Assembly: GCA_009773645.1 (NCBI GenBank)
Contig: WSYB01000028.1
Coordinates: forward strand, 1 to 58,886
Length of the DNA: 58,886 nucleotides
Source: Geobacteraceae bacterium
GTDB taxonomy: Bacteria > Desulfobacterota > Desulfuromonadia > Geobacterales > Geobacteraceae
Direction: 5' to 3'
In this document: positions 8,501-41,921 of the stretch, one piece after another
How the letters are laid out: every line of letters begins with the position of its first letter
How positions within the stretch are numbered: position 1 is the stretch's first letter
Position numbers and translations under genes: made by a program
The notes under the pieces: generated by a model
Told to the model about the DNA's origin: nothing
What the model saw: the letters and a program-made list of their open reading frames with translations, nothing else
The model's database searches: none

Positions 8501-8721
8501 ACCTGGTTGACCGCCTCCTCGATCCGTTTGGAAACCTCCCGTTCCACTGTCTCCGGCGACGCGCCGGGGAACTTGGTGACCACGGAGACCACCGGGAACT
8601 CCACGTTGGGAAACATCTCGACGGAGAGGCGGCGATAGGAGAATATGCCGAGGACGACCAGGGCCAGGATCATTACCGTGGCAAAGATGGGGCGTTTGAT
8701 CGATGTGTTTGATAGAATCAT
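5575..8721 (-). CDS. RND (HAE1/AcrB-type) efflux pump inner-membrane subunit
   Basis: 1,048 residues, the usual size for AcrB homologues. It starts [43 protein letters not shown], the standard RND opening with TM1 and the periplasmic porter domain. The proton-relay aspartates are present in [13 protein letters not shown] and the TM10 lysine in [13 protein letters not shown]. Two duplicated halves, each with six membrane helices and large periplasmic loops, can be followed. It exports hydrophobic compounds using the proton gradient together with the adjacent fusion protein and TolC-like channel. Oddity: the C-terminus ends in a repeat-derived tail ([19 protein letters not shown]) reading into the inverted repeat, so the native end was probably replaced or extended. 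The stop overlaps the GxxExxY start by a few bases. Confidence 0.92.
5591..5621. repeat. Right arm of 31-bp perfect inverted repeat
   Basis: Exact reverse complement of 5090-5120. It encodes the last residues of the RND pump ([10 protein letters not shown] region) and ends beside the GxxExxY ribosome-binding site. Confidence 0.9.
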
Positions 8722-21217: not shown

Positions 21218-22141
21218 TTACGGCGGGCAGCAGGCGCAGACCGACCGGAAGAGGGCCGTGCTCAGATAACGGTCCCCCCTGTCCGGTAAAACGGTCACAA
21301 TGGTGCCGAAATCCATGTTCTTCGCTATCTGCAGCGCCCCGGCCACGGCAGCTCCGCTGGACATGCCTACAAAAAGCCCTTCCCTTATGGCCAGTTCTCT
21401 GGCAGTCGCAAAGGCCGATTCGTCTTCTACGGTTATTTTTTCATCCAGCGCCTCCTCCCGGTAAATTTCAGGGACAATCGCCTCCTTCATATTCTTCAGC
21501 CCCTGGATCTTGTGTCCCAGCCGTGGTTCAACGCCGATGATTTTCACGTCGGGTTTCTGTTCCCTGAGGAATTTCCCCGCTCCCATAAGGGTTCCCCCCG
21601 TCCCCATTCCGGCCACAAAAACATCGATCTGGCCGCCGGTCTGACGGAAAATCTCCGGACCGGTCGTCTCATAGTGTGCCAGGACATTGTTGGGGTTGCC
21701 ATACTGATTCGGCATGTAATATCTGTCCGGACTTTCCGCCAGTATCCGGCGGGCAAGCCTGATTGCCCCGTCCGTGGCCTCTTCCGCCGGAGAGAGGACC
21801 ACTTCGGCGCCGAAGGCTTCCAGAACGCTGCGCCGTTCCAGGCTGACGCATGCGGGCATAACGAGCTTTACCCAGTACCCTTTTGCCGCCCCGAGCATGG
21901 CAAGGGCGATCCCCGTATTGCCGGATGTCGGCTCAAGAATTATTTTATCCCTGGTGAGTTCTCCGGACTCTTCAGCCCTTGTCAGCATATAAAGGGCTGG
22001 ACGGTCCTTTATGGACCCCCCTGGATTGTTCCCTTCCAGCTTGGCGAGAATCCTGACCCGCGGTTTGGGATTTATGGCCGTCAGTTCGATGAGTGTGGTG
22101 TTGCCGATGTTTCCTGCCAGGGTAAACGGGTTGTTTGTCAT
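21218..22141 (-). CDS. cysM: Cysteine synthase (CysM/CysK family)
   Basis: 307 residues. PLP lysine in NNPGGSIKDRPAL, substrate loop EPTSGNTGIAL, and the phosphate-binding glycine loop GMGTGGTLMG are all present. It makes cysteine from O-acetylserine (or O-phospho-/thiosulfate variants) and sulfide in the cytosol. The C-terminus ends in SVCACCPP, an unusual cluster of three cysteines that may bind metal or sulfur; the CysM label rather than CysK follows overall length and local sequence and is not certain. Confidence 0.88.
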   Translation of the reverse strand: MTNNPFTLAGNIGNTTLIELTAINPKPRVRILAKLEGNNPGGSIKDRPALYMLTRAEESGELTRDKIILEPTSGNTGIALAMLGAAKGYWVKLVMPACVSLERRSVLEAFGAEVVLSPAEEATDGAIRLARRILAESPDRYYMPNQYGNPNNVLAHYETTGPEIFRQTGGQIDVFVAGMGTGGTLMGAGKFLREQKPDVKIIGVEPRLGHKIQGLKNMKEAIVPEIYREEALDEKITVEDESAFATARELAIREGLFVGMSSGAAVAGALQIAKNMDFGTIVTVLPDRGDRYLSTALFRSVCACCPP

Positions 22142-25900: not shown

Positions 25901-27632
25901 CAAGAACACCGACTGCTACCAGTGTCACTGGGAGTCTACCAGCCATGGGTTGATCGATCTCACCTATCACACGGGGTACAACTACAGAACCTACACCTCC
26001 GTAAAGAACGATCCGGTCGACCTTGTGCTCTGGCAGCCAGGCGCCAGCCAGACCGTTGGCGTGCGGCCGACGAACTACAAACTCTATTCTACGGCAACCA
26101 CGTTCCTTGCTTCATCGATGTCGGCGGACAATGCAGCGGCGCGGACCGAGGCGGGCAAGATCAACAACCACTGCATCTCCTGCCACAGCGACCAGAACAA
26201 TGACAATAATGCCATTTTCGAAGGGGATTGCCGGACACCGCGCCAGTATGCCTGGGACGCCCAGAGCATTGCCGCCCGTTATTCCCAGACCGGCACGACT
26301 CGGTGGGGCAAATACAACTCATCGTCGAATCAGAACGTTACCAGGAAGGACAAGGTCGTCAAGGCGTTCTCGGCCCACGGCAACGCGGTCAACAACGCCG
26401 GCGGCTTCAACAGTTACAGCGGTCTCAACGGCACCATTCCCAATACCCGCGGGGGCGCCCGGAACGTGCAGTGTTTCGACTGCCATAGCTCCCACGGCTC
26501 TCAGGTGGTCGGGACCACATCCAGCTATATCACTTTCAACGGCACCAGGAACGGCGGGAACCTGAAGGAGACCCAGCAGGGCAAAGGGGGCTACCTCATG
26601 AGCTACAAGGCGGCGCCCAATCCGAATCCCGGCGATATCAACCCCTACAGCGCCGGCGCCGGCCAGTGTTTCGACTGCCATTTGAACCAGAATTCGGGAG
26701 TTACTCCGTGGGGCTACGATTCCACCTTTGACGCGGAAAAGCCGATTCTGGGTTATCGGGATTCCACCCGCTTCGGCCAGGCAAACGATACCGCGGTCAT
26801 GCTCCGCTCCACCGGGTTCAAGTCGACGCGAACCATGCAGGGGGGGCATATGAAGGCTTCGAATGGTGGAGTCACCCGTACTCCGGAGCAGACCATCGAC
26901 GGACTCTGCACCCCCTGTCACGACCCCCACGGCGTCAGCCCGTCCCTGGGAGCAAAGCAGGAGTATGCGGTGCCGCTGCTCAAGGGGACGTGGCTCAGTT
27001 CGCCCTACCGTGAAGACGATCCTCCCCCTTATCCATTCGGCCCGAACGCCAGAGGGAACGGCTGGGGGCAACGCGTATACAACTATCCGGAAGGCTATCA
27101 ACAGTCTACTCCGGCTCCGGGGTACGTGTCACCGGTGGTCAACTACAATATCGACCGGAACACCTTCGGCGCTTCAGGCCGGGTTACGGAAGATGTGACA
27201 AACTTTGCCGGGCTCTGTATCCAGTGCCATACCCAGCAGAAACTGACCGGAGGCTCCCAGACCCAGTGGAAGGGTCTTGACCGGGTCCATCGAACTGTCA
27301 AGGGATGGGGGGGGAACAATGAACATGCCTATACCTGTTCCAAGTGCCATGCTCCCCACACGGCAGGCCTGCCGCGCCTCATGATCACCAACTGTCTCGA
27401 CGGTAAACACCGGGGCAAGCGCGTGGCGGGCGGCCAACCCTGGAAGCCTGCTTTACAGGATATCGATGCGCATGGGTACAGACAGCAGTACCGCGGCTAT
27501 CCGATCGGCAACATCTATAAGAATACGCCGGATCATCAGTACAACACGAGCTGTCATGCCACTGTTTCGGACAACCCGGACAGGAACAACTGGCCGAACA
27601 ACAACGGCTGGAACAACGTTACCACGTGGTGA
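22938..27632 (+). CDS. Giant multiheme c-type cytochrome (about 33 haem sites)
   Basis: 1,564 residues from a TTG at 22938 with GGGGGTG upstream; an ATG at 22980 is the alternative. Signal peptide RRWLIVIWMIFAVVTCALEGTAGA precedes the first haem site CYQCH. By eye I count 27 CxxCH motifs, five CxxxxCH (CSNVNCH, CTNLYCH, CYNVYCH, CNNAGCH, CSNTACH) and one CxxxCH (CVESCH), i.e. up to 33 c-type haems. The N-terminal half, where CxxxxCH and CxxCH alternate, fits the Geobacter CxxxxCH/CxxCH domain family. There is no membrane anchor or porin, so it should be periplasmic or extracellular and move electrons towards external acceptors. A final lone CH (NTSCH) suggests a decayed haem site. It is 49 bp before the giant repeat protein. 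Confidence 0.93.
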   Translation: MNRLEGRRWLIVIWMIFAVVTCALEGTAGAIECYQCHGTTADYRPVDDPSGIRNDQTGGFKGNHRTHMPTTVTGSSAPCAACHRGSDGYGTSHMNRRVDISFNINSSPSPAKATYSKGVFFNQTGVPLGGTCSNVNCHFEKPTPSWGGPTIARTDCTTCHNSPPANGAHGKKHGLYFGSYTSSCGKCHPDHTKETNPLAHPLGAGKRPLNVQFTTFPNSGGTYSGDVSYPKYLPSQNPPLNGICTNLYCHSDGKGGTVSVRWSDTAFTTCYSCHRGRTADSTYANCSDIQGVWSSAKGACAPSLTMTSNGHERLVGPKWIRRYPCTFCHNATVLPQPTGPGTPPVDGQLNIAKHVNVKKDVVMDPFWNIEFSSVQASYSSSTKTCYNVYCHSDGTVNPPYVKPFSWTEGKTDCNSCHGHPTGTCNNAGCHDGRTDGTGKTWTLPKEFGNVTSYAWPTGVKWRAAIPMFRNEGAGTDRANSHPRHTETDFSCDRCHAATITAGACNGCHQTLSGKMSEYAHINPAYHVNKKKEVVFKEGGTYDPLKKSCSNTACHTGGTDPVWGGSVNSSVTCLNCHGTAGGDVDTFGYHETGSTAKINSTEWYSAGHGRRDKDGPYPVSGNPPARFSGNACWYCHDNNVVHNDQKNFFRLRQHPQFGKRFDKECVYCHMEGNDLECRGCHDSEGSEAPLLANITSARFSIDHGPFAGTTQGCVESCHTSDASIHKSGNTRFWTSAEKDDVKNQYMMMGVCLQCHDDDSNGKCTSCHTSGNPYKYSIGFRPPGFDNYSFIKPKKARATSGHFGYKHYRQFEASGGWEIDPVTNKPKGSWRGGKFCWDCHDPHGDSNIYMIQKKVATSTDGTFGIPQSRSDVVFTQKLTGNDYAKKDAPFNGICNVCHSKESDHFTLERGDGHNLGRVCTTCHEHRFSDSHASGQSCNSCHMNKPVPRHSGFGLPRDCTKCHAGAIGKRMDIVGQMKGVSHHVQRPSGEIKNTDCYQCHWESTSHGLIDLTYHTGYNYRTYTSVKNDPVDLVLWQPGASQTVGVRPTNYKLYSTATTFLASSMSADNAAARTEAGKINNHCISCHSDQNNDNNAIFEGDCRTPRQYAWDAQSIAARYSQTGTTRWGKYNSSSNQNVTRKDKVVKAFSAHGNAVNNAGGFNSYSGLNGTIPNTRGGARNVQCFDCHSSHGSQVVGTTSSYITFNGTRNGGNLKETQQGKGGYLMSYKAAPNPNPGDINPYSAGAGQCFDCHLNQNSGVTPWGYDSTFDAEKPILGYRDSTRFGQANDTAVMLRSTGFKSTRTMQGGHMKASNGGVTRTPEQTIDGLCTPCHDPHGVSPSLGAKQEYAVPLLKGTWLSSPYREDDPPPYPFGPNARGNGWGQRVYNYPEGYQQSTPAPGYVSPVVNYNIDRNTFGASGRVTEDVTNFAGLCIQCHTQQKLTGGSQTQWKGLDRVHRTVKGWGGNNEHAYTCSKCHAPHTAGLPRLMITNCLDGKHRGKRVAGGQPWKPALQDIDAHGYRQQYRGYPIGNIYKNTPDHQYNTSCHATVSDNPDRNNWPNNNGWNNVTTW

Positions 27633-27681
27633 TACCGGGGTTGATGCGAGACAATGTTCTTCTTTAACTGGAGGCGATCAG

Positions 27682-30600
27682 ATGAATCATAAGCTAAACA
27701 AGGTTGGATATGTGACCATGCATGACGGGTGGTGCGTCCGCTTTCCCATGCTGTTTCGTACGCTGGCGCTGCTGGCTGTCCTGGCAGTATCCATAATTGC
27801 CCCTCCGCTTGCATTAGGGGCAGGTGGTACGGTGATCTGGTCAAAGGGCGATGCTCAGCTCCATAAACAGGAGGCCGTGGCGTCTGTTGCCGATTCCCAG
27901 GGAAATGTTTTTGTTGCCGGTTTCCGCAATCTGAATGGCAATACCGACGATGACTGGTGGACGGTGAAGTTCGATTCAGGTGGCAACGTTGTCTGGCGCG
28001 CCTTTTACAACCCGGCCGGCGGGATGGACCGGACTACGGCCGTGGCACTCGACTCGGCGAAAAACGTCATCGTTACCGGGTTCTCTACCAATGGAGCCAA
28101 TATCGATATCCATACCATCAAATATAACGGCGAAACCGGAGACGTCATCTGGCAACGGACCTATGCCGGCGACGGCAACGGCGACGACAGGCCGTCGTCC
28201 ATCGCTGTCGACAATCAGGACAACGTTTACGTGGCAGGGTATACCCGCAATGCCTTCGGCAAGCATTATGTGCTGCTCAAGTACACCCACTCCGACAATC
28301 CCGGTCAGGACGGAATTCCGGCTTGGAGGTCGATCCACAATGAAGCGGTTGCAAGCACCGAAGAAGCCCTCTCTGTCGCTGCGGACGGGAACGGGGTTGC
28401 GGTCACCGGCTTCTCGCAGGAAGGAGAGGACTTCGACCTCCTGACAATTCTCTACACAACTGATGGTGTTCAGAGCTGGGAAAAGCGTTACGATTCAACG
28501 AATCCGGGTTCAACCGAAGACCAGGGGAATTTTGTCCGGTTCGATGCCGATGGCAACGTGGTAGTAACCGGATTTACAACGAATAATCTTGATCGTGACA
28601 TCTATGCCGCCAAGTACGACCGCGCGACAAGCAATCTCATCTGGGAGGCCTCCTATGATGGGGGCTTCCATGATGAGCCGGCAGCGTTGACCCTCGATGG
28701 TGCGGGGAACGTCTATGTCACCGGTTCCACCTGGACACTTGCGGGCAACAATAATTACTATACCGTCAAGTACGACCGAAATCCGTTGAGCGGGACCAAT
28801 GCTGAGATTTTGTGGCAGAAGACCTTTGACTCGGGCGCCGGGAATAGCGATATTGCCATTCCAACCGGGATCGTCGTCGATGCCGATGGCGGAGATGTCT
28901 ATGTGACCGGATACACGGAGAGCGGAGGATACACCGATTTCCAGACCGTCAGATACAAGGGTGATACGGGGAGCGAACTCTGGCACACCTCCGACGGCAG
29001 TACGATAAGCCGCAACGACAGGCCGGTCGGCATCGGGCTGTCTCCTGAGGGGGATGTGCTGGTGGCGGGCTGGTCGGACACGACCGGCTACGATTATGAC
29101 TACCATGTCATCAGGTACCAGGCCGGTGGGCTGAACAGGCCGACCGATCTCATTGCCCAGGCAACGTCATTGACCTCTGTCGATCTCTCCTGGACGGACA
29201 ACTCATCCAATGAGAGTGGTTTCAATGTGTACCGGTGGGATAGTATGGGCAACCAATGGGTCAAGGTCGGCGGGGCCGGAGTCCCGACTGTCGGCCCCAA
29301 TAACGAAACCGTTGCTCCTAAAGTTACATATACCGACACTACAGGGGTGGTTGCCGACACACGTTACGACTACTATGTCACTGCCGTGTCAATCGCCCCT
29401 GAGGACGAATCGCACCCTTCCAATCAGGCTTTTGCGGTCACGACTATCCTCACACCCGTGGCGCCCGCACAGGGTGATGTTCTCAGCTTCGACAGCCCGG
29501 ATCACATGGAGGATGCCGCAGTGGGGATATCTGCGGGCCCGGACGGCAAACCGGTCGTTGCCGGGCGGAGCATCTCGAACACCGGCGGCTATGACTACCT
29601 TACCATGAAGCTCGACACGACCCTGAACCTCCTTTGGAAGGGTATTTACGGCGGGGACACCAACGGCACCGATGACGCGACGGTGCTGGCGGTAGACAAT
29701 GCCGGGGATGTCGTGGTTTCCGGTTACTCGGAGCTGGACAACGGCACCACCGGCAACAGCAGCCAGATATACACACTCAAGTATGCAAGGGACGGGATGG
29801 CTGGAGCCGGCAAAGAACTCTGGCACGGGCAATTTACGGGAACGCCCCGGATTGACGACCGGGCCGAAGCGGTGGCAACGGCGGTGGACAGTTCCAACAA
29901 CGTGGTGGTTGCGGGGAGGGGAAAGAACGACTCGGGCAACTATGACCTCTATGTCATCAAATATGCTGCGAACGCCAACCCTGACACCTACGGCAATAAC
30001 ATTCCTCCTGCCCAATGGAACGCGCTTCCCTTCGACGGGGGGGGCGACGACCAGCCGGGCGCCGTGGCCTTCGATGCAGCGGGCAATATCTTCGTGGCCG
30101 GATTTACCGAGCAGCGGGAAAGCGGTTCCGCCGCGGGAGGGACGAAAACAACCATAATCACTGCCAATAGCTGGCCTGACGATAAGTGGAAATATTCATA
30201 CGTTACCGTAAGAAGCGGCGCCATGGTGTACACCAGCCGTATCACGGGAAATACGGCAACAACCGTTACCGTTGCCGACCCCTTCCTGAACGACGTCAAG
30301 CCGGGCGACACATACGTTATTTCAAATTACGACTGGTTCGTTGCCAAGTTTGACGGTACCACCGGAGCGCGCATCTGGACCGATATCTATGACAGCGGCT
30401 ATGGCAATGACCGGGCTTACGGAGTGGCGGTAGACCCGGTAACCAACGACGTCTACGTAACCGGCCACCGCTCCAACGCCGCCGGCAACACCGATATCCA
30501 TACCATCAAATACAAAGGTTCTCCCACAACGCCGCCAACCGCCGAAAAGCTCTGGTCAGACGGCGGGCGATCCTACGACGGCGCCGGCCATGGCGACGAC

Positions 30601-33600
30601 ACAGGGATCGCGGTTCGCGTGACCCCCATAACCCGCAGGGTTGTTGTCGGCGGGGCCACCCTGACGGCAGCAGGCGATAATGACTATACCCTGATCATGT
30701 ACAACTCCGACGGCACAGCCGTTTGGGCGCCGGAGGCAAGGGTGCCCAGGAAGCCCGGGACGGACGACTATGCCCAGGCAATGACCGTGGACGGTTCCGA
30801 AAATATCTATCTTACTGGTACCATTATCAAGAGCGACCTGACCAGCGACAGCATGACTCTCCAGTACAACCATGAGGGTATCCTGGTGCGGACGGTGGTC
30901 TACGACGGCGCAAACCATTTGAACGACGAGTCGGCAGGCATTGCGGCCAACGTGGCCGGCGAGGTCTTCGTGGCCGGTTCCACCAAGGTCAGTGAGACCA
31001 ATACCGACCTTCTCGTTTACAAGATTGGAGCAGATTCCCTCCAGGCCCCCTATCCCCTCACGGCAACAGCGACGTACAGGTCTGCAGTCATCAGCTGGCC
31101 CGCCAACCCCGGCGGGGAGACCAACTACACCGTTCAGCGGGCGCCGGGCTCCTGTTCTACCGCAACAGCCTGGAGCACACTTGTTCCTCCTCCCGCAAAT
31201 GCAGGCAACTATGTTGACAAGGGACTCAATATCGGCACGACCTACTGTTACCGTCTCCGAAGTTTTTTGGGAACCCTTGGCCAGCCGGGATACCGCGAGT
31301 CGCTCTGGGTGACGGCTTCGGCAACCACCCTTGCTCCCGAGGCCCCGGGCACACTTACCGCAACACCGGTGAACACGAGTCAGGTCGACCTTTCCTGGAC
31401 CCTGCCCGTGGCAACAGGGCATACCGGCTTTGTCATCGAGCGCTGCACCGGCGCCAACTGCGTCTTTGCCGATGGAGATGCGAGCCGGGTCGCCTTCCCG
31501 CCGCTCAAACCGGATGCCACCAGTTTTTCGGACAGCACGGCCTGCGCCGGTTACACCTATAAATACCGGATCGCCACTGTCAATCGGGGGCTGAGCCTGG
31601 ACAACAACGGCAACTGGAACACCAGGAAACCGATTACGTTCACGAACTACCAGCCCAATGCCTATACGCGGATTACCATCGACTATGCGTCACCTATGAA
31701 GACGGACTTCAGCGACATCCGTTTTTACGATGCCGTCAGTCTCCAGGAACTGCCGTTCTGGATCGAATCCAAGACCGACGGCGGTTCTGCCCTTGTGGTC
31801 GTAAAGACCGGGGTTACCGACAAGGCCTACTTGTACTATGGCAATGGGGCGGCCCAGAACGCCGGGTTTGTGTCCGGCCTGGTCGGCTACTGGCCATTCA
31901 ACGAAAATGTAACATTCACAGGTCAAACCGCCGATCTGAGCGGCAATGCAAACACCGGCACCCTGACCTTCATGCAGAGCGGCACCGGCATAGTCAGCGG
32001 CGGGAAGTTCGGCAATGGCCTCGGCCTCGATGGTGCGAACGATCATGTGCGCGTTAACGACACGACCGGCTCATCCCTGGACATAACCGGTTCGCTCACC
32101 ATTGAGACCTGGTACCAGTACGCTCCCAGTTCGGAGTGGGCGCGGATATTCTGCAAACCTACGACCGGCAATGCTCAGCCCTGGATACTCTACGGCTTGC
32201 TCCTCGACAATTCCTTCGGCGCGCAGAGACCTTACCTCGTTATTTCCAACAGCAACACCTGGACTCCCCCGGCCAGTATCAGCACCGGTTCTCCCATGGG
32301 GCCGTTCCTGACAGAAGGGAACTGGTACCACCTGGTCGGCAGGTACGATGCTGCGGCGAGCAAGGCAGCGATTTTCGTCAACGGCGTCAAATACGAGCAG
32401 GATATCCCCCCCGTAACTATTGCTGTAAGCAATGAGATTCTGGGTGTCGGCGCCTCCGGAGCCTTTGGAGCATATACCAACGGGGTTCTCGATGAGGTCC
32501 GACTGTATAACCGTGCCCTGCCTGATCAGGAAATAAAGAACCGTTACAACATGGTTGCCTCCGGCATAACTCTGGGCGCGGCAGAGTCCCCCCCAGGCGG
32601 CGCGACCTACTTCGACTTCAGTCCGCTTTCGTGGCAGTCGGTCTACATCATCGCGCCGAATGCGGTGCTGCAGCCGCCGTCCGCTCCCACGCTCGGGTCG
32701 GTGACGAGGGTCTCCGAAGCACGGCTCGATTTGTCATGGACCGACAACACCACCGACGAGACCGGTTTCCAGATCGAAAGGATGTGCACGGCCGGCCCCG
32801 GATGCGCCGATACCGACTTTGCGGTCTTGACCGGAGGTTCCCTCCCCGCTTACCCGGGAACCGGCAGCAAACTCTTCAGCGATACCGGGTTGACCCCCAA
32901 TACTACCTACAGTTACCGGATCCGGGCTCTGAAGAACGGTGCCTGCGGCTGGGACAACATCCTTAGCGGCGTCAAGAGCAAGGAAACTACCGTCCTGGCG
33001 CCGGTCATAACCTCGACATCGCCGGCCAGCAGCACACAACTCAACCTTGCCTGGACCGATGACGCATCCTCCCTGTCCGGCTACCGGGTAGAGCGTTGCA
33101 ACGGCGTATGGGGAACCTGCGCCGGCGGCATTTTCTCCGCTGTTGGCGGATCTCCCGCCAAGAGCTACGACGATATTGACGCCTGCGAGAATACCGATTA
33201 CACCTACCGGGTCGCGTCGGTCTTCAAGGGGCTTTCCGCATCGGGCGGCCCCTGGGCCATGAGGGCGCCTGTCGCAATATCAGGCTTCAAGACGAACTTT
33301 AAGACAAGGCTGACGGTAAACTACACATCGCCCATGAAACCCGATTTCAGCGACATCAGGTTCTTTGATACCGTTGCCAATAAAGAGCTCCCCTATTTCA
33401 TCGAGAGTAAGAGCGACGGGGTATACGCCGTCGTCTGGGTCAAGACGGGAGACAACGACGCGGTCTATCTCTACTACGGAAACCGGAAAGCCGCCAGCAC
33501 CAGCAATATCAACGGTGTGTTCGGCCCGGGTCTGAAGGCCTACTGGCAGTTCGAAGAGCCGGCCGGCACCGCCAGCACTGTACTTGCCGACCTTGTCGGC

Positions 33601-36600
33601 GGGGCTGGGAACAGTCCGACGATCAGTCCTGTCACGGCATCATACGGCATCGTCAGCGGAGGAGTGTACGGCAATGCCCTGCGTCTTAACGGTTCCATGA
33701 GCGCCACCAAAGACGCGGTAACCCTGCCGACCGGCAACATTGCCAGCGTCGAAGCCTGGATAAGGCCGGAAGGTTATCCTACGGCAACGTATAATGGGAT
33801 TGTGTCGTGGGGACCCCGTTCCGGCACCGGTGTCTCATTTGACATGTGCGTACAGAATACCGGCTTACCCTGTCTGGCGACCTGGGGTAACGACATCGTG
33901 CCCGGCACGGGGGCGGCCGCCACCCTCAATCAATGGAACCATATCGCCGTGGTCATGAACGGCAAAGATGTTACGCTCTACATGAACAATACACCGGTTA
34001 CGGGTACACTGGTTTTCATGCCCAATCTGCAGTCACAGAGACTCTCCATCGGTAACACCGATTATCCTCCAAGCGTTTTCAGGACTTTCAAAGGCTACAT
34101 CGATGAAGTCAGGGTTTACGACCGGGTGCTCACAGTCCAGGACATCGCTTCAAGCTACGCGGCGGTCCTCCCTACGGCCAGCGTCAATTTCGCCGGGGCT
34201 GAAGCGGCGTCGGCCATCCCGGGCGAATGGGTCGGCCCTTACTCGGCAATTACCGTCCAGTCAGCCGGGAAAACGCCGGCCGCCGCGAGCCCGACGAATC
34301 TCACCGTCAACTGGAAATCGGAGACGCAGCTCGATCTCTCCTGGAACGACGCTAACAACGACGAAACCGGCTTCAAAATTGAGCGTTGCACTGACGAAGC
34401 CTGCTGCCGTGACGCCCTGTGCACCGATCCGGCCAGAAAGACAGTCCTCACGAAAACCGGGAGCGGCACGTCTTACACCGACAGCGGGTTGACGCCGGCA
34501 ACCACCTACTGGTACCGGGTGCGGGCCTATAAATCCGCCGGGTGCGGATGGGACAAGGGTGGCTACGGCGCCAACGACGTCAAGTCGGGCATAACCACGG
34601 TGAAGGCTCCCGACAATGTGTCGGTAACGCCGTCGCTCTACACCAACTGCAACGACATCCGCTTCGCCGACGCCTCCGGCGCGACGGTATATCCCCACTG
34701 GCTGCAGAGGTCGTGCAACTCCAACAATTCAGCCATCATTACCAGGGTATCGTCGCTGCCGGCGGGACAGAGTCCTGTCTATCTCTATTACGGCAACCTT
34801 ACTGCCGCCAACGCCAGCAATGCGGACGGCGTCTCGGAGATGTTCGACGATTTCCAGAACCTGAGCAGTTGGACGGTCTCGGGCGCGGTAACATCCAATG
34901 CCGGCATCCTGTCCGCCGACGGCAGCAGCGCTGCCTCTGCCTCGCTCTACCGGAACTTCTCCGTGGCGTCGCCATTTGTAGCCGAAGTGAAATACCAGCA
35001 TCCCACCGTCTCCCGCAACCGTCTTTTTCTGACCACTGCGACGGGCACCGGTTCGCCCACCGGGTACGACTACGGCGTTTTTGATCCAAGCCTGTACTGG
35101 AACGGTTTTTCTGGGGTAACACTCACGGCGAACACCTGGTATACGATGCGCTGGGAGAATGCCGTCGGCAACTATACCTGGCGGATACTGAACCAGAGCG
35201 GCAGTGAGGTGTTGAGCCGCTCGCACGGGTCCGCAATTGCCGGTCTGCAAAGGTTCTACATGTCAGGGGGCGAGGCGGATGCCAGCGATTTCAAGCTTGA
35301 CTGGTTTTCCGTGCGCAAACTTGCCAGCCCCACCCCGACTACGCTGCTCGATCCCTTGAAAAACGAGTATCCGGCTGCTCCCTACACCGTGGATAGTATC
35401 AGTTTCTATGCACGCAAGGAGGTTGCCGTTACCAACGGCACCGGATCGACGCTGAGCGCATTCCCTGTGGAGATGGGCGTGGATACCCGATCGCTTGCCA
35501 CCGACCGGATAACCATCGGCTGGAATGACCCATCCTCTCTCGAAACCGGCTTTTCGATGATTCGCTGTACTGCCGGCAATCTGTCCTCCGACTGCGATCC
35601 CGAGGTTTCCGGCACGTGGACTGTCACAACCGACCCCAACAGCGGAGCGACGGCTTCGTATGTGGATACGACGGTGGTGCCCGCCCTGCGTTACTGCTAC
35701 AAAGTGAAGGCGCTGGTTCCCGGCGTGACGACCAGTTACAGCGCCACGGCCGTCTGCGCCAACACCTCCGTGCCTACAAAGCCCAACGGGCTTACTCCCG
35801 CGGTTACCGGCAGCAGGATCGACCTTTCATGGAGCGACTCGAACCCGGTCATTCCAGACGGTTACATCGTTGAACGCTGCCAGGTCGTGAGTGGCGGCGC
35901 CTGTGCCTTTAACACATCCGACAGCACCTTTACAACGTTTGCGGTCGACCATTCCCAGAAGACCTTTACCGATCCCAATGCCTGCAGCGGCACCTACCGC
36001 TACCAGGTCAAGTCGGTCAAACCATGGGTAAGCGAGTGGCCGGCCGGCTACGACGGCCCAGTCGAGGCTTCCGTCGGCGTCCCGACAGCGCCATCGGATT
36101 TGAATGCGCAAGCGGTTACCGAAAGCCAGATCAACCTCACCTGGACCGACAACACCACCGACGAAACCAAGTTCGAGGTACAGCGCTGCTCTCTGGCCAC
36201 CTGTGGGGACACGGATTTCGTAACGCTCGCCAGCGGCACGCTGCCTGCCCATCCGGGGACCGGCGCGATGAGCTTAGCCGATAATACCGTTGCGCCGGAT
36301 ATCACCTATACCTATCGCATCAAGGCTATAAAAGAAGGGATCTGTCCCTGGACCGTTCTGAGCGCGGAATTGACGGACCCCGCCAGGACCAGGGCAACAC
36401 GAACCGCACCGACTATTACCGCCACCCCCAAAAACACCACCCGCATCGATCTCTCCTGGACCGACCCTACCGCCGGCGAAACCGGCTACAAGGTGCTCCG
36501 TTGCAGCGATGCGACCTGTACCGCTCCGACCACGCTGGCAACCCTCGGGATTGGAATGACCTCCTATAGCGATACGGGCATCTGCAACTCCACGACCCCG

Positions 36601-39600
36601 TACTATTACCAGGTAAGCGGGTTCAAGTCCGCCAATCTCTCATTCGCGGGAAGCGGAACCTGGACGAAGCGGGCAAAGCTCGCCATTACCGATTTCCAGC
36701 AGGATTACCAGACCAGACTTACCTTTACGGTGGCGAGTTACCTGGGTATGCAGGCAGACCTTCGGGATATCCGGTTCTATGATGCCACGGCGGGAGCCGA
36801 GCTCGCCTACTGGGTTGAGGAAATTTCTTCCGGTGTTGCCACGGTCTATGTAAGAACCGGGAAGAACAACGATATTTACCTCTACTATGGGAATTCGTCA
36901 GCTACGAGCGCCAGCAGCGGCGCAGCCACCTTCCTCCTGTTTGACGATCTTGAGCAGGGGATGGGCAGGTTCCTGGCCGGAAACGCGGTACAGGTTTCCA
37001 CCCCCGTGAAGTCGGGGAGCTACGCCGGAAAACTCTCCACCACCGGTGCCTGGGTCCATGACTACCTCGATATCGGCGCAATGACCAAGGGGAAGGTGAC
37101 AGTCTGGTACAACCTTCCCCAGACCAACAAGGATGTGGTGGCGGCAACCTTCACCAAGTCAGGGTGGGAAAGCGACCAGACATGGGTCACATTCAAGAGC
37201 TACGGTTGGAGTGCCATCAGAGATGGCGGGACCGACAGGAATCTTTCCGCATACCAAAGCAACACCTGGTACAAGATTGACGTGGAATTCGATACGACCA
37301 CTGACAAGTACAAGGTGTGGGTCAACGACAGCTATGTCAATCAATATAATTTTGCCGCAGTTTCGGATGATATCCGTTATCTCCGGATAGCCCAGCTGGA
37401 TGCCGCAGGGAAGGACATCTACTTCGACAACGTGCGGGTCAGCAATTATGGCACCGCGGTACCGGCCGTTTCCCTGAATTCCCCCGAGTCCTCAGCTGGG
37501 TACTCATTCATCTCCAGTTGGCCCGACGAGAATAAGAGCAACATCGCATCCGCCACTCCCTTGGCAATGGCCGCTCCGACCCTCGATTCGGCAACCGCGG
37601 CATCGGATACCCAGATCAACCTCTCCTGGACCGACGGTAACAGCGACGAGGCGGGCTTTCAGATCGACCGCTGCTCCGACGCCGGATGCGGTACCGTAAT
37701 AAAGACCATAATGTATCCGACGCCAGCCTCGCCAGCGGGAAGCTACAGCGACACCGGTCTTGCCCCCGGCAAGACCTATTACTACCGGGTCCGTGCCTAC
37801 AAACCCCAGTCTGGCGCCTGTGGGGGCGATGTTCTGGGGAGTTACAGCACCATCAAGGGGGACACCACTGCCGCTCCAGCTCCCGCCAACCTGACGGCAA
37901 CAGTGGAGGGGAGCAACCTTGTCGACCTGATGTGGGATGACGCCACCCAGGGTGACACCGGCTTCGTCATCCAGCGCTGCACGGGCGGCTCCTGCGATCC
38001 GTCGTCCTCGAATATAGGGGTGGTCGGTCCCAAGGCAGATCCTTACATGGTCCGCTACACCTTCAACAACAACCTGCAGGATTCGTCCGGCAACGGTCTG
38101 CACCTGGCCGGAACGTCTCCCGTCTACGAAGACGGCGGCCTGAGACTGACCACGTCAACTAGCTATCAGAGTCCGACAACTTCGATCCTTGACACTGATA
38201 ACTATACCATTGAGTTTGATTTCAAAATGAAAGGAGTAACACCAAATGCCGGCAGCTGGTATCAGGTATTCGCCTACAGACCCGCCGGTACCGACCGCAG
38301 TCCCGGAATCTGGCAGGAGAATTCCAGCAGGGCCATGTTCACCTGGCAGCACGACAATGTAACGTACAGCGGCACGAGCGGACTTGGCCCGACCGGCATG
38401 AATGGTTCCCAATTCACCCTTGATACTTGGTATCACATCAAAGGGGTCAAGAGTGGAGCCAACTTCAAGGTTTACATTAACGGCTCGTCCTCACCGGTCG
38501 CTGAAGCTACGGTGGCTAATCCCAAGGTGGCCGGCTCTTCGCCGCTATACTTCGGCGGCGCCGATATGGTTGTCAGAAATTTCACCGTGACGAATGATGC
38601 CGTGACAAAACGGATATACCTGGATTCCACGGCATGCAGCGGGCAAACCTATACCTACCAGGTGCGCGCCCTTGGCGGAGGGCTCTCGTACGATGGCACG
38701 GGATGCTGGCTGCGGCGGGCGAAACTGAATTTTGCCACAAACAGTTTCCAGGCCAATTATCAGACCCGGCTGACGGTCAATATATCCACGTTTACGGAGA
38801 TAAAGGCTGGCTTCAGTGACATCCGGTTCTACGACACCGTTGCCAATCAGGAGATCCCCTACTGGATCGAAAAAATCTCGACGGATGGCAACGTTGCCAC
38901 GGTCTGGATCAAGACCGGTGCCAATGACAGTATCTACATGTACTACGGCAATTCATCCGCTTCTTCAGCGAGTAACGGCGAGAGCGTTTTCGAGTTCTTC
39001 GATGATTTTGAAGGTGGCTCCATCAACACAAATAAGTGGTCGGTAATCGATTACACCGGTTTCAGCGTTTCCGACGGCAAGCTGCACGGCACGAACTCGA
39101 CCGGCAAACTGGCGGCGAACAGCACGTTCAGTTCTGGCGTGACGATGGAAGCAAAAGCAACGTCGGCCAATAGCGCGTATAACGGCCAGCTTATTGCCGG
39201 TTTCAGCTATACGTCCGATTCGTATGGAAACAAGCGATCCGTGGAGTGGAAAAATAAAAACAACAGGGTAGAGATATGGTCTTTCTCTAATGGCAATACC
39301 GGCGGCATATTGCCTGCCAATACTCCCATGCTTTACCGAATGAAGGTCAAGACTACAACATCTATTGATGCAGATGTTGAGAACTATGACACGGGTGCGT
39401 CATTATACGCATATCCCTCGCTAACCTATACTGCACCGAATAGTCCCTTTACCCTTGCGCTCGGCAGGTCTCTGTACAGTAGCAACAATCTCGGCTATCT
39501 TGATGAATCGTATGCGACCGACTGGGACTGGTTCCGCGTACGGAAATACGCGGCAATCGAACCGACGGTTACTCTCGGCGCCGCCGAGGATAACGGCGGG

Positions 39601-40974
39601 TCCTGCTTCAGCATCCTCAATGCCTGGCCAGCAGACATCAATCTCACCTCAAACATGCAAACGGTGACCATGCCCGCCCCTGTGGCGCCGAGCGGTTTGG
39701 CGGTTACGGCCGGCGGGACCCAGGCGGCTCTGAGCTGGGTTGATAAAACCGGCGACGAGACGGGGTTCAGCATCGAGCGCTGCTCAACCGAAACGGACGC
39801 GTGCGACTTCAGTTCGCTGGACAGCGGCTTCCCAAATACTGCCGTTGGCACTAACATCACAACCTTCACTGATTCCGGTCTTGCCTACCAGACCACCTAT
39901 TGCTACCGGGTGCGTTCCTACCGGAATGAAGCGTGCGGCCAGTGGGAAACAACCTTCACGAAACCTGTCTGCATCAGGACCACGGCTGCGCCACCATTCA
40001 ATCTGCATGCCGAGGCACAGAATTCGTTCAAAGTGCTTTTGACCTGGGATTACAACACGACTGCGGAGGGCTTCGAGGTGGAGCGCCGGATGCCGAACGG
40101 CATGTGGACACAGATCGGGAGGACCGGCGCCACGGTGAAAACCTTTACTGATACGGCCGGCATCGAGCCCGGCAAGTCCTATAAATACCGGGTACGGGCC
40201 TTTTACGGAAGGTCGGGTGCATTGGAGCCGACCGATTGGACCCAACGCGCCTTTATTCGCAATGTTTCCGGCGCAATCGTGCCGGGTGAGGATATAACCT
40301 CGGAACTTTCCGGACCGGAAATCAATATCGTCGATGCCGCCAACGGAACGGCAAGAATTACACCGTCGAGCGGATCGGTGGAGATATCCACCAGCAGCAC
40401 CGGCGGAGGGAACAGCACGGCTGCCAGCTCGTCACGGATTATGCTGAAGAATCTGGCTCCCTATGCAGGGGACTTTGACGTCCAGGTGGATTATTCCATG
40501 CCGGACGGGCAGTCAAGCAGCGGCCAATGGGTTGCATATGCAAGGCTCCATGCCGCCTTCGGCGCCAATTATGCGTCCATCTATCGGGTTGTCAATAATG
40601 GGGCGAACCAGTACTATGGGATCATCTATCTGGACGGTATTTCCAGTACCGCGTTCATTCCCACCTCCGAGACGTCAGGGAAGCTGCGGATCAAGAGGGA
40701 AGGGGCGGTTGCGACCCTTTATGTATGGAGTGGCGGTAAGTGGATCGTGGTGCATGAGGGGAGTTGCTCTTCAACTCCGGCAACGTCTCTCATGGTTCTT
40801 CAGGATGTCCGACGCCTGGATACGGCGGCGGTGCGGACCGTGTTCAGTAACTTTACCGCCTATCCACACAAATCGCCATACAGCGATGAGGCGACGGTCA
40901 GTTATACAAACGGAGGCGTCACCATTCCCACGACTCCTGTCTATACCACGGGCGCCTCTCCATGTTCGCAGTAA
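27682..40974 (+). CDS. Giant secreted SBBP / FN3 / DUF2341 / LamG repeat protein
   Basis: 4,430 residues from the ATG at 27682 (GGAGG eight bases upstream); earlier in-frame starts overlap the cytochrome gene. A signal peptide ends near ALGAGG. Residues ~50-480 and ~595-1120 are SBBP-type beta-propeller repeats (e.g. VDNQDNVYVAGYTRN). About a dozen FN3 domains with LSWTDNTTDETGFxIERC follow. Five DUF2341 modules (DIRFYD...YLYYGN) occur near residues 1310, 1860, 2310, 2990 and 3670, each followed by a LamG/concanavalin-like domain; the third lacks its N-terminal strand. No membrane anchor or sorting signal is visible. A surface adhesin, matrix or cytochrome-scaffold role is inferred. It probably shares a transcript with the cytochrome. 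Confidence 0.9.
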   Translation: MNHKLNKVGYVTMHDGWCVRFPMLFRTLALLAVLAVSIIAPPLALGAGGTVIWSKGDAQLHKQEAVASVADSQGNVFVAGFRNLNGNTDDDWWTVKFDSGGNVVWRAFYNPAGGMDRTTAVALDSAKNVIVTGFSTNGANIDIHTIKYNGETGDVIWQRTYAGDGNGDDRPSSIAVDNQDNVYVAGYTRNAFGKHYVLLKYTHSDNPGQDGIPAWRSIHNEAVASTEEALSVAADGNGVAVTGFSQEGEDFDLLTILYTTDGVQSWEKRYDSTNPGSTEDQGNFVRFDADGNVVVTGFTTNNLDRDIYAAKYDRATSNLIWEASYDGGFHDEPAALTLDGAGNVYVTGSTWTLAGNNNYYTVKYDRNPLSGTNAEILWQKTFDSGAGNSDIAIPTGIVVDADGGDVYVTGYTESGGYTDFQTVRYKGDTGSELWHTSDGSTISRNDRPVGIGLSPEGDVLVAGWSDTTGYDYDYHVIRYQAGGLNRPTDLIAQATSLTSVDLSWTDNSSNESGFNVYRWDSMGNQWVKVGGAGVPTVGPNNETVAPKVTYTDTTGVVADTRYDYYVTAVSIAPEDESHPSNQAFAVTTILTPVAPAQGDVLSFDSPDHMEDAAVGISAGPDGKPVVAGRSISNTGGYDYLTMKLDTTLNLLWKGIYGGDTNGTDDATVLAVDNAGDVVVSGYSELDNGTTGNSSQIYTLKYARDGMAGAGKELWHGQFTGTPRIDDRAEAVATAVDSSNNVVVAGRGKNDSGNYDLYVIKYAANANPDTYGNNIPPAQWNALPFDGGGDDQPGAVAFDAAGNIFVAGFTEQRESGSAAGGTKTTIITANSWPDDKWKYSYVTVRSGAMVYTSRITGNTATTVTVADPFLNDVKPGDTYVISNYDWFVAKFDGTTGARIWTDIYDSGYGNDRAYGVAVDPVTNDVYVTGHRSNAAGNTDIHTIKYKGSPTTPPTAEKLWSDGGRSYDGAGHGDDTGIAVRVTPITRRVVVGGATLTAAGDNDYTLIMYNSDGTAVWAPEARVPRKPGTDDYAQAMTVDGSENIYLTGTIIKSDLTSDSMTLQYNHEGILVRTVVYDGANHLNDESAGIAANVAGEVFVAGSTKVSETNTDLLVYKIGADSLQAPYPLTATATYRSAVISWPANPGGETNYTVQRAPGSCSTATAWSTLVPPPANAGNYVDKGLNIGTTYCYRLRSFLGTLGQPGYRESLWVTASATTLAPEAPGTLTATPVNTSQVDLSWTLPVATGHTGFVIERCTGANCVFADGDASRVAFPPLKPDATSFSDSTACAGYTYKYRIATVNRGLSLDNNGNWNTRKPITFTNYQPNAYTRITIDYASPMKTDFSDIRFYDAVSLQELPFWIESKTDGGSALVVVKTGVTDKAYLYYGNGAAQNAGFVSGLVGYWPFNENVTFTGQTADLSGNANTGTLTFMQSGTGIVSGGKFGNGLGLDGANDHVRVNDTTGSSLDITGSLTIETWYQYAPSSEWARIFCKPTTGNAQPWILYGLLLDNSFGAQRPYLVISNSNTWTPPASISTGSPMGPFLTEGNWYHLVGRYDAAASKAAIFVNGVKYEQDIPPVTIAVSNEILGVGASGAFGAYTNGVLDEVRLYNRALPDQEIKNRYNMVASGITLGAAESPPGGATYFDFSPLSWQSVYIIAPNAVLQPPSAPTLGSVTRVSEARLDLSWTDNTTDETGFQIERMCTAGPGCADTDFAVLTGGSLPAYPGTGSKLFSDTGLTPNTTYSYRIRALKNGACGWDNILSGVKSKETTVLAPVITSTSPASSTQLNLAWTDDASSLSGYRVERCNGVWGTCAGGIFSAVGGSPAKSYDDIDACENTDYTYRVASVFKGLSASGGPWAMRAPVAISGFKTNFKTRLTVNYTSPMKPDFSDIRFFDTVANKELPYFIESKSDGVYAVVWVKTGDNDAVYLYYGNRKAASTSNINGVFGPGLKAYWQFEEPAGTASTVLADLVGGAGNSPTISPVTASYGIVSGGVYGNALRLNGSMSATKDAVTLPTGNIASVEAWIRPEGYPTATYNGIVSWGPRSGTGVSFDMCVQNTGLPCLATWGNDIVPGTGAAATLNQWNHIAVVMNGKDVTLYMNNTPVTGTLVFMPNLQSQRLSIGNTDYPPSVFRTFKGYIDEVRVYDRVLTVQDIASSYAAVLPTASVNFAGAEAASAIPGEWVGPYSAITVQSAGKTPAAASPTNLTVNWKSETQLDLSWNDANNDETGFKIERCTDEACCRDALCTDPARKTVLTKTGSGTSYTDSGLTPATTYWYRVRAYKSAGCGWDKGGYGANDVKSGITTVKAPDNVSVTPSLYTNCNDIRFADASGATVYPHWLQRSCNSNNSAIITRVSSLPAGQSPVYLYYGNLTAANASNADGVSEMFDDFQNLSSWTVSGAVTSNAGILSADGSSAASASLYRNFSVASPFVAEVKYQHPTVSRNRLFLTTATGTGSPTGYDYGVFDPSLYWNGFSGVTLTANTWYTMRWENAVGNYTWRILNQSGSEVLSRSHGSAIAGLQRFYMSGGEADASDFKLDWFSVRKLASPTPTTLLDPLKNEYPAAPYTVDSISFYARKEVAVTNGTGSTLSAFPVEMGVDTRSLATDRITIGWNDPSSLETGFSMIRCTAGNLSSDCDPEVSGTWTVTTDPNSGATASYVDTTVVPALRYCYKVKALVPGVTTSYSATAVCANTSVPTKPNGLTPAVTGSRIDLSWSDSNPVIPDGYIVERCQVVSGGACAFNTSDSTFTTFAVDHSQKTFTDPNACSGTYRYQVKSVKPWVSEWPAGYDGPVEASVGVPTAPSDLNAQAVTESQINLTWTDNTTDETKFEVQRCSLATCGDTDFVTLASGTLPAHPGTGAMSLADNTVAPDITYTYRIKAIKEGICPWTVLSAELTDPARTRATRTAPTITATPKNTTRIDLSWTDPTAGETGYKVLRCSDATCTAPTTLATLGIGMTSYSDTGICNSTTPYYYQVSGFKSANLSFAGSGTWTKRAKLAITDFQQDYQTRLTFTVASYLGMQADLRDIRFYDATAGAELAYWVEEISSGVATVYVRTGKNNDIYLYYGNSSATSASSGAATFLLFDDLEQGMGRFLAGNAVQVSTPVKSGSYAGKLSTTGAWVHDYLDIGAMTKGKVTVWYNLPQTNKDVVAATFTKSGWESDQTWVTFKSYGWSAIRDGGTDRNLSAYQSNTWYKIDVEFDTTTDKYKVWVNDSYVNQYNFAAVSDDIRYLRIAQLDAAGKDIYFDNVRVSNYGTAVPAVSLNSPESSAGYSFISSWPDENKSNIASATPLAMAAPTLDSATAASDTQINLSWTDGNSDEAGFQIDRCSDAGCGTVIKTIMYPTPASPAGSYSDTGLAPGKTYYYRVRAYKPQSGACGGDVLGSYSTIKGDTTAAPAPANLTATVEGSNLVDLMWDDATQGDTGFVIQRCTGGSCDPSSSNIGVVGPKADPYMVRYTFNNNLQDSSGNGLHLAGTSPVYEDGGLRLTTSTSYQSPTTSILDTDNYTIEFDFKMKGVTPNAGSWYQVFAYRPAGTDRSPGIWQENSSRAMFTWQHDNVTYSGTSGLGPTGMNGSQFTLDTWYHIKGVKSGANFKVYINGSSSPVAEATVANPKVAGSSPLYFGGADMVVRNFTVTNDAVTKRIYLDSTACSGQTYTYQVRALGGGLSYDGTGCWLRRAKLNFATNSFQANYQTRLTVNISTFTEIKAGFSDIRFYDTVANQEIPYWIEKISTDGNVATVWIKTGANDSIYMYYGNSSASSASNGESVFEFFDDFEGGSINTNKWSVIDYTGFSVSDGKLHGTNSTGKLAANSTFSSGVTMEAKATSANSAYNGQLIAGFSYTSDSYGNKRSVEWKNKNNRVEIWSFSNGNTGGILPANTPMLYRMKVKTTTSIDADVENYDTGASLYAYPSLTYTAPNSPFTLALGRSLYSSNNLGYLDESYATDWDWFRVRKYAAIEPTVTLGAAEDNGGSCFSILNAWPADINLTSNMQTVTMPAPVAPSGLAVTAGGTQAALSWVDKTGDETGFSIERCSTETDACDFSSLDSGFPNTAVGTNITTFTDSGLAYQTTYCYRVRSYRNEACGQWETTFTKPVCIRTTAAPPFNLHAEAQNSFKVLLTWDYNTTAEGFEVERRMPNGMWTQIGRTGATVKTFTDTAGIEPGKSYKYRVRAFYGRSGALEPTDWTQRAFIRNVSGAIVPGEDITSELSGPEINIVDAANGTARITPSSGSVEISTSSTGGGNSTAASSSRIMLKNLAPYAGDFDVQVDYSMPDGQSSSGQWVAYARLHAAFGANYASIYRVVNNGANQYYGIIYLDGISSTAFIPTSETSGKLRIKREGAVATLYVWSGGKWIVVHEGSCSSTPATSLMVLQDVRRLDTAAVRTVFSNFTAYPHKSPYSDEATVSYTNGGVTIPTTPVYTTGASPCSQ

Positions 40975-41020
40975 CGGGCGCCGGCTTGACGAATGAATGT
41001 CTGAAAGGGGGTGATGAACC

Positions 41021-41083
41021 GTGAGAAAAGCAAAATACACCCGTCCCAGGATTGTGGGGAGTGCAACAGTCCATCCTTGCTGA
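41021..41083 (+). CDS. 20-residue peptide, candidate RiPP precursor ('geopeptide'-like)
   Basis: GTG start at 41021 preceded by AAGGGGGTGAT (41005-41015), an almost perfect anti-Shine-Dalgarno match, and stop TGA at 41081-41083, just before a strong terminator. The peptide contains KYTRPRI and ends VHPC. Y-x-x-P-x-[IL] is the motif by which many RiPP leaders bind an RRE (PqqD-like) domain, and a C-terminal cysteine is a plausible modification site. I recall a short Geobacter peptide family informally called 'geopeptide', paired with a radical SAM maturase, but cannot verify the match here. No maturase lies in the window. Position 46 bp after the giant protein suggests co-transcription. Confidence 0.55.
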   Translation: MRKAKYTRPRIVGSATVHPC

Positions 41084-41100: not shown

Positions 41101-41142
41101 AAAAAAACGGGACACCTTTACCCAAAGGTGTCCCGTTTTTTT
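41101..41142. terminator. Strong bidirectional terminator closing the cytochrome/giant-protein operon
   Basis: A 19-bp perfect stem (41101-41119 with 41124-41142), including CGGGACACCTTT and flanking A7/T7 tracts, around a four-base loop. It sits between the peptide gene and the convergent NRDE gene and can serve both. Confidence 0.95.
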
Positions 41143-41150
41143 GTACCCCC

Positions 41151-41921
41151 TCAGAAGCTGACACTGAACCGATACGTAACGGTTTTCGACGGTTCCGTTC
41201 CCCCGTTGAACGTCCGTTCCATGAATGTCACCCTGCATTCCCGGTCGATGAGGACCAGCGTGGAAGAGCGGGTGCCGTAGTCGGGTGTCGAGATGAAGAG
41301 AGGAGAGAGCTGGCGCTCCCGCTCAAGCCCCACCCCCGTATCTGGAAGTAGATGGTCCGGGGGAGAGGTGCGGTCGGCGAGGATTGCAAAGAGCGCTTCG
41401 GGCGAAGGGTCTTTCCCTTCCGTGGCAAGCCGCTCCAGCGCCTCCTTTCCGCGGGCAACCTTCGGCCATGGAGTGTCGAGGAGATGGTTGGAGAGGCCGT
41501 GTATTCCCCGTCCCAGTGTCGAGGGGAAACCGTCCCGGTTGGAAAAATAACAGAGGCGTTCCGTATCGCCGAAGATGAGATTGAAGCCGTTGCATGCCCC
41601 TCCCTCTTCCTTGAGGAGCTCCAGGTAATCGGCGGCGGTCATGGTCCCGAGGAGAAAGTCGCTTACGAGCCTGCCGCGGGAAGGCGCCCCTTCCCGGTAT
41701 GACCGCGGGTCGCGGTAGTTGGTGATGGCTGCGATCCTACCGTTTTTGGTTATGCCGAGCCAGGTTCCTCCTCCTTTCAGGTCGCGCCCCGCCAGAAGCT
41801 GCGGCGCTTCACCCCAGAACGAGGCCTGGGCGGTCGGCCGGGCGAAGAATTCATCGCGGTTGGCGGCAAGAATGAGCCGATAGTCGGGATGGGCATCGTA
41901 TGACAAAAGGATCAGGCACAA
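41151..41921 (-). CDS. NRDE (TANGO2-like) family protein
   Basis: 256 residues. The N-terminus MCLILLSYDAHPDYRLILAANRDEFFARPT carries the invariant Cys2 and N-R-D-E of the family, and GGTWLGITKNGRIAAITNYRD follows. Human TANGO2 is linked to haem trafficking and lipid/metabolic disease; the bacterial members have been proposed to handle haem, but the activity is unproven. A haem-related role would suit a cytochrome-rich cell, though adjacency alone is weak evidence. Confidence 0.88.
   Translation of the reverse strand: MCLILLSYDAHPDYRLILAANRDEFFARPTAQASFWGEAPQLLAGRDLKGGGTWLGITKNGRIAAITNYRDPRSYREGAPSRGRLVSDFLLGTMTAADYLELLKEEGGACNGFNLIFGDTERLCYFSNRDGFPSTLGRGIHGLSNHLLDTPWPKVARGKEALERLATEGKDPSPEALFAILADRTSPPDHLLPDTGVGLERERQLSPLFISTPDYGTRSSTLVLIDRECRVTFMERTFNGGTEPSKTVTYRFSVSF

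Follow-up and report, generated by a model that had tools for sequence, protein, structure and literature searches.

A 20-residue peptide, probable precursor of the GeoRSP radical SAM system, encoded beside a giant protein and a multi-haem cytochrome in a Geobacteraceae bacterium

The mycofactocin and PQQ systems each bring together a small precursor peptide, a PqqD-like chaperone, and a radical SAM/SPASM enzyme, and leader peptides with a YxxP motif are known from other systems as well. In lasso and related systems the YxxPx[LVI] leader motif is described as being bound by RREs (in passages of PMC13381572 and PMC12710340), and mycofactocin figures in part of PMC3023750 as a proposed electron carrier. 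Among catalogued radical SAM systems is GeoRSP, whose three models (TIGR04302, TIGR04303, and TIGR04304) cover the enzymes. No description of the system or its substrate was found in the open-access literature searched, where the name surfaced only as an unrelated homonym, nor did those searches turn up a GeoRSP precursor or any RiPP connected with multi-haem cytochromes.

We analysed a stretch of 58,886 nucleotides, contig WSYB01000028.1 of a Geobacteraceae genome (assembly GCA_009773645.1), referred to below as the window, in which a 20-codon gene follows those of a multi-haem cytochrome and a giant protein. The host genome carries a GeoRSP cassette that scores over the cut-offs of all three models, with two copies of the peptide gene linked to it. 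The peptide itself matches no NCBIfam or Pfam model; judged from sequence comparisons, it is very probably the precursor of the GeoRSP system.

With mycofactocin and PQQ the locus shares the small precursor, the PqqD-like chaperone, and the radical SAM/SPASM enzyme; unlike them, it has several scattered precursor copies with a VHPC core, many of them beside large surface proteins. The mycofactocin model TIGR03962 scores 171 bits on the GeoRSP radical SAM protein of this genome, below its cut-off of 265. The likeness to the thio(seleno)oxazole system of SbtM lies in the radical SAM/SPASM family and in the YedE and cysteine desulfurase genes that stand beside GeoRSP in other orders; the SbtM model TIGR04082 reaches 81.5 bits where its cut-off is 350, and the peptides here end in VHPC. 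Lasso leaders carry the same YxxPx[LVI] motif as these peptides, but the lasso PqqD models stay below their cut-offs on the PqqD protein here (NF033536, 30.4 bits against 80; NF033530, 23.6 against 70), and no lasso cyclase was found among the cassette neighbours scanned.

The Peptide Gene and Its Family

The gene occupies positions 41021–41083 of the forward strand and reads GTG-RKAKYTRPRIVGSATVHPC-stop, with GTG at 41021–41023, 20 codons, and TGA at 41081–41083. Codons 1–10 are GTG AGA AAA GCA AAA TAC ACC CGT CCC AGG, and codons 11–20 with the stop are ATT GTG GGG AGT GCA ACA GTC CAT CCT TGC TGA. The product, M(V)RKAKYTRPRIVGSATVHPC, contains Y-T-R-P-R-I within the proposed leader YTRPRIVGS and has a final HPC within the C-terminal VHPC. 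A strong Shine-Dalgarno sequence (AAGGGGGTGAT, 41005–41015, forward strand) precedes the start, and a purine-rich site also lies 5′ of the other family members whose upstream DNA was read. An alternative frame over the peptide from ATG 41014 was rejected, as it begins 2 nt past the G-run of the Shine-Dalgarno sequence and conservation follows the GTG frame.

The stop codon of the giant protein gene lies 46 nt ahead of the peptide start, and 17 nt past the peptide stop begins an intrinsic terminator (41101–41142, forward strand), a perfect 19-bp stem with an A-tract, a U-tract, and a 4-nt loop. Its fold has a predicted energy of −31.2 kcal/mol (z −6.9), and none of 200 shuffles was equally stable. 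A consensus terminator scan of the window returned no sites, probably because the T-run sits within the stem, and the fold was taken instead. The terminator may act bidirectionally, since the next large open reading frame (41151–41921) is convergent. The initial annotation had pointed to the Shine-Dalgarno sequence, GTG start, 20 codons, YxxPxI motif, HPC end, and nearby strong terminator, all of which we confirmed in the sequence and the fold; the cytochrome and giant protein that it placed upstream in the same operon were found as claimed, on the same strand.

The frame at 41021–41083 is a real gene. Its occurrence is beyond chance, since four more members are present in the same genome and a profile search recovered the peptide from 97 of the 277 genomes searched in the class, whereas a reversed profile built from 20 of the 24 rows matched a single genome of the 277, at threshold (E 0.009). 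The genome's five members are MRKAKYTRPRIVGSATVHPC, MKKSKYTRPKIVGSAAVHPC, MKKKYLPPRVVGCAVVHPC, and MRKRYIPPKVVGSAAVHPC, the last present twice, and every one ends in VHPC-stop. Within the taxonomic family the profile search located members in 12 of 48 genomes, at 32 places, with up to 6 peptide copies per genome over the material as a whole. All class-wide searches (peptide, maturase, and tail) score the best first-pass candidates per genome. A pattern scan of contigs, which gave at least 114 stretches, extended the family to records whose titles name Nitrospirae, Thermodesulfovibrionia, and Deferrisomatales, and among cultured relatives it picked up Pelotalea chapellei, Geomobilimonas luticola, Geotalea toluenoxydans, and Geobacter sp. 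OR-1 and AOG1 as carriers.

Six positions are invariant in the 24 distinct peptides compared: M1 (alternative starts counted as M), Y6, P9, H18, P19, and C20. Comparisons among 30 distinct coding stretches of 31, selected by a pattern that demands the residues Y, P, H, P, and C as well as the stop, give an identity of 0.78 at the first codon position, 0.77 at the second, and 0.37 at the third, against 0.25 in the upstream and 0.27 in the downstream flank. Third positions thus vary while residues are kept, and conservation falls off at the stop codon. For the same stretches pN is 0.22 and pS 0.72 (near saturation), a pN/pS of 0.31. When HPC was not demanded, an HPC-stop peptide was still found at 33 of 33 loci, three of which repeat others. 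The initial annotation had staked its reading on conservation in relatives and on constraint at the codon level, and both are present.

Copies with an extra cysteine (Y.RP.V.G..CVHPC and alike) occur in the Nitrospirae records L206, L216, L238, and L243, several per contig in the last three, and some stand behind CarboxypepD_reg proteins. The core histidine is not absolute, since one diverged copy, at a tail place of genome G255 (G255:C1:147786, locus L390), ends in VYPC instead of VHPC. Selenocysteine at the stop, or UGA replacing the cysteine, had been raised by the selenium-type genes near some cassettes; it was dropped because the stops are mixed (112 TGA, 56 TAA, and 9 TAG at 177 places) and no V-H-P-stop variant occurs among 283 loci.

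The GeoRSP Cassette in the Host and Its Relatives

A complete GeoRSP cassette of PqqD chaperone, radical SAM/SPASM, and SPASM proteins lies in the host genome on contig C67, a different contig from the window's, with scores over the curated cut-offs for TIGR04302 (170 bits against 100), TIGR04303 (628 against 400), and TIGR04304 (369 against 300). Two of the genome's five peptide genes stand 7.5 and 11 kb from the radical SAM gene on the same strand. The GeoRSP PqqD protein is matched by PF05402 (PqqD family), and Y-x-x-P is invariant in the 24 peptides. That the window holds no maturase, as first stated, is borne out for the 12 large frames scanned, none of which encodes a radical SAM protein; a genome-wide TIGR04303 search gave 13 matching places, all of them on contigs other than the window's (C60). 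The host maturase with a PqqD-like, RRE-type partner that the initial annotation had proposed to look for is present (TIGR04303 and TIGR04302 over cut-off), and it is the named GeoRSP system, which that annotation did not know. The RiPP-leader interpretation is supported by conservation, codon constraint, and a GeoRSP maturase in the host; the envelope signal or cofactor-like peptide that the initial annotation went on to propose would be a further step.

Peptide and maturase occur together. Within the taxonomic family 11 of the 12 genomes with TIGR04303 have the peptide, which occurs without the maturase in a single genome (G004, 78% complete). Across the class 81 genomes have both, 2 only the maturase, 16 only the peptide, and 178 neither; the peptide is thus present in 81 of 83 TIGR04303 genomes and absent from 178 of 194 others (Fisher 9e-51, shared ancestry ignored). 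Fourteen of the 16 peptide-only genomes are below 95% complete, the others being G117 (96%) and G239 (97%); in three of the 16 the peptide match is weak (G051, G176, and G246). Further afield, in 24 peptide-positive records chosen by title, mostly Nitrospirae, TIGR04303 was found at 1e-60 or better in 22 genomes and its cut-off was passed by 18; at 1e-60 it was found in none of 14 named control genomes.

Two genomes run against the pairing. No family peptide was found in G030, a single contig listed as 100% complete, despite its TIGR04303 protein and three matches to the tail, and G226 has the maturase with no peptide found. Pattern scans for a diverged peptide near the cassette gave none in either, and the HPC-TAA/TGA sites read (30 of 30 in G030, 21 of 26 in G226) included no family peptide. 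Both remain counterexamples.

Operon linkage was counted for all 83 maturase places against the peptide places listed on the same contigs. At least 23 of the 48 maturase places from other orders have a peptide gene that follows the radical SAM gene, on the same strand, at a distance of 30–209 nt. The order to which the window belongs shows this direct succession at 0 of 35 places, among the matches listed, and where contig and strand are shared these matches put the peptide mostly 7–12 kb upstream of the radical SAM gene. The peptide sits between the radical SAM and SPASM genes in 9 of the 10 other-order cassette loci read, a set partly chosen for visible linkage. L131, from outside Geobacterales, scores 456 bits against 400 for TIGR04303, with TIGR04302 (95 against 100) and TIGR04304 (82 against 300) below cut-off.

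All 10 other-order loci compared for their neighbours (L130, L131, L133, L135, L137, L138, L139, L144, L148, and L149), one of which supplied the queries, contain relatives of a NosD-like beta-helix protein, a PhnD-like binding protein, a TPR protein, YedE, a cysteine desulfurase, and an 89-aa protein. In the one other-order locus scanned with models, YedE (TIGR04112) scores 397 bits against a cut-off of 200 and the cysteine desulfurase (TIGR01977) 410 against 377; the YedE beside GeoRSP is of the selenium transporter type. Geobacterales cassettes have NosD-, OpuAC-, and ResB-like genes nearby, and some also have PhnD, TPR, YedE, ArsP_1 permease, and cupin genes. We read these neighbours as a putative link to sulfur/selenium or metal metabolism.

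Large Partner Proteins and Their C-Terminal Tail

The cytochrome upstream of the peptide gene in the window (22938–27632, forward strand; TIGR01904, PF09698, and PF14522) has 27 CxxCH and 5 CxxxxCH motifs. It is followed by a giant FN3/DUF2341/LamG/beta-propeller protein (open frame 27466–40974, forward strand) with 4502 codons in the whole open frame and 4430 from its likely start, ATG 27682, which follows GGAGG and gives a signal-peptide-like N-terminus. This haemless giant ends in ...YTTGASPCSQ, with a cysteine third from the C-terminus. Divergent from the cytochrome operon and upstream of it is a cysteine synthase gene (21218–22141, reverse strand; TIGR01136, 373 bits over 344), and farther off on the reverse strand lie genes for a mercuric reductase (15843–17249; TIGR02053, 511 bits over 454) and an RND efflux permease family protein (5575–8721; NF033617, 881 bits, below the cut-off of 1250).

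We recorded the nearest same-strand gene within 400 nt upstream of each peptide gene in two sets: set A (the 32 taxonomic-family places and our own choice of class-wide places) and set B (from the pattern-scan stretches, at least 114, where the pattern forces V-H-P-C and the 8-kb loci cut many upstream genes). That gene encodes at least 10 haem motifs or at least 2000 residues for 37 of 70 peptide genes in set A and 22 of 104 in set B; among background genes of the same loci, 26 of 762 and 10 of 601 are that large or haem-rich. The 70 genes of set A divide into 28 behind a protein with at least 10 haems, 9 behind a haem-poor giant of at least 2000 aa, 8 behind the GeoRSP radical SAM gene, 4 behind a protein with 1–9 haems (some cut by contig ends), 12 behind another gene, and 9 with none. 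For the 104 of set B the corresponding counts are 20, 2, 13, 5, 39, and 25, 11 of the last at the locus edge. A giant is not an obligatory neighbour, since of the 174 peptide genes 51 follow another gene, and for 34 no upstream neighbour on the same strand was found in that 400-nt range. Recurrence beside giants, the check proposed at the outset, is nevertheless seen, with peptides adjoining FN3/propeller giants and multi-haem cytochromes in relatives. Other recurring neighbours are CarboxypepD_reg and FG-GAP/UnbV proteins, with an HD-domain protein in one record.

Many of the cytochromes linked to a peptide share the C-terminal sequence x-C-H-spacer-W-N-x-x-[TS]-P-W, in which the CH stands without the first cysteine of a haem motif. 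The cytochrome in the window ends in SCHATVSDNPDRNNWPNNNGWNNVTTW; its tail (SCH...NGWNNVTTW*, 27540–27629, forward strand) matches profile A3 at 1.3e-7, being itself one of the profile's 25 rows. The tail pattern is found in 31 of 48 directly upstream cytochromes with at least 8 haems as against 5 of the 31 remaining cytochromes at these loci (four of the five stand two genes ahead of a peptide); both pattern and profile were drawn up with the peptide-linked proteins already in view, which favours the association. In the class the tail profile matches 65 of 277 genomes, all 65 within the 99 that are maturase- or peptide-positive, and 0 of the 178 with neither. PF09698, a related domain, is spread over 30 of the 48 genomes of the taxonomic family, 18 of the 35 negative ones among them, so it is the tail and not this domain that tracks the system.

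Tail and peptide are also close on the chromosome. Comparing the first 54 tail places listed with 150 listed peptide places, we found a peptide within 15 kb downstream for 38 of the 54, 31 of them at 77–230 nt by start coordinates. All four tail matches in the window's genome lie in operons of four of its five peptides. Among 20 tail places read, 2 have a family peptide within 2 kb downstream (the VYPC copy in G255 and an ordinary copy in G115), a lower bound because 5 of the 20 frames run past the motif and an intervening giant can put the peptide 7–13 kb downstream.

The haemless FN3-type giants of the window and of L057, L007, L008, L071, L078, L081, and L159 have a similar C-terminal stretch with a single cysteine at the second or third residue from the end. 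Counting haemless large partners as a whole, 12 of 16 have a cysteine in their last six residues.

What the Modified Peptide May Do

The explanation that we favour starts from what was computed here, namely the gene family, its codon constraint, the genome co-occurrence, the operon linkage, and the system-restricted tail. Taken whole, it states with good though slightly lesser confidence than the precursor assignment itself that the peptide is a minimal GeoRSP RiPP precursor whose core is modified, the product then working alongside large redox proteins of the surface. To judge by its motif and by the protein family, the leader would be bound through Y-x-x-P-x-[IV] by the RRE-type chaperone of the cassette, the GeoRSP PqqD-family protein; the radical SAM/SPASM enzyme and its SPASM partner would then act on the C-terminus, modifying its V-[H/Y]-P-C core. 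Copies of the precursor would be made within operons of very large exported redox or surface proteins, and we infer that the product is exported and acts on their tails, most likely at or near an unpaired C-terminal cysteine, as a cofactor-like or capping group.

Many large redox-protein operons carry their own 18–20-codon precursor, and in our view the product probably serves the large surface proteins because the core is nearly constant while the gene recurs across their operons. That it acts with the adjacent giant proteins is somewhat favoured. A covalent or direct bond to the giants' C-terminal tail is a more tentative proposal, and we would put it forward with little confidence that a GeoRSP group is joined or specifically bound to a dedicated tail of very large extracellular redox proteins. 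It is equally conjectural that this tail would be xCH...WNxxTPW on the multi-haem cytochromes and the cysteine-containing end on the haemless giants.

The strongest rival, to which we give perhaps a quarter of our belief, makes GeoRSP the source of a diffusible general redox cofactor or signal, like PQQ or mycofactocin, with the cytochrome operons carrying the precursor only for co-regulation. The high conservation of the core over the copies read, the several copies that stand alone, and the kinship of the radical SAM protein with mycofactocin and PqqE maturases would all suit such a product. A cofactor usually needs one precursor gene, whereas here up to 6 copies occur per genome, many in large-protein operons, and the tail is seen only in system-positive genomes.

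A slightly less probable alternative holds that the peptide, through its His-Pro-Cys end, binds sulfur, selenium, copper, or haem for cytochrome maturation, with GeoRSP tuning the ligand. It draws on the loci with NosD-like, PhnD-like, TPR, and YedE proteins, on the cysteine desulfurase in other orders, and on the ResB-like protein and ArsP_1 permease in Geobacterales loci, but sits poorly with partners that include haemless giants and FG-GAP/UnbV and CarboxypepD_reg proteins. That the peptide itself is unimportant, the conserved short frame acting at the RNA level in regulation or structure or serving to couple translation, is very improbable, and the riboswitch form of this reading was rejected: the frame's place at the operon end, near a terminator and behind a strong ribosome-binding site, would fit, but the coding constraint is strong, with third positions varying while residues stay and conservation ending at the stop codon, the peptide co-occurs with a peptide maturase, and Rfam gives no match in the window at gathering scores.

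On the favoured reading, in which the modified peptide works with large surface proteins, a catalogued radical SAM system gains a candidate substrate of 18–20 residues, easily synthesized, that makes the enzyme testable. A RiPP pathway linked to very large multi-haem cytochromes, both in Desulfuromonadia and in Nitrospirae-titled records, and a tail restricted within the class to pathway-positive genomes suggest that extracellular electron transfer includes a maturation step not suspected before. Attachment to the tail, if true, would add to that process a peptide-based post-translational modification or sorting step of a new kind.
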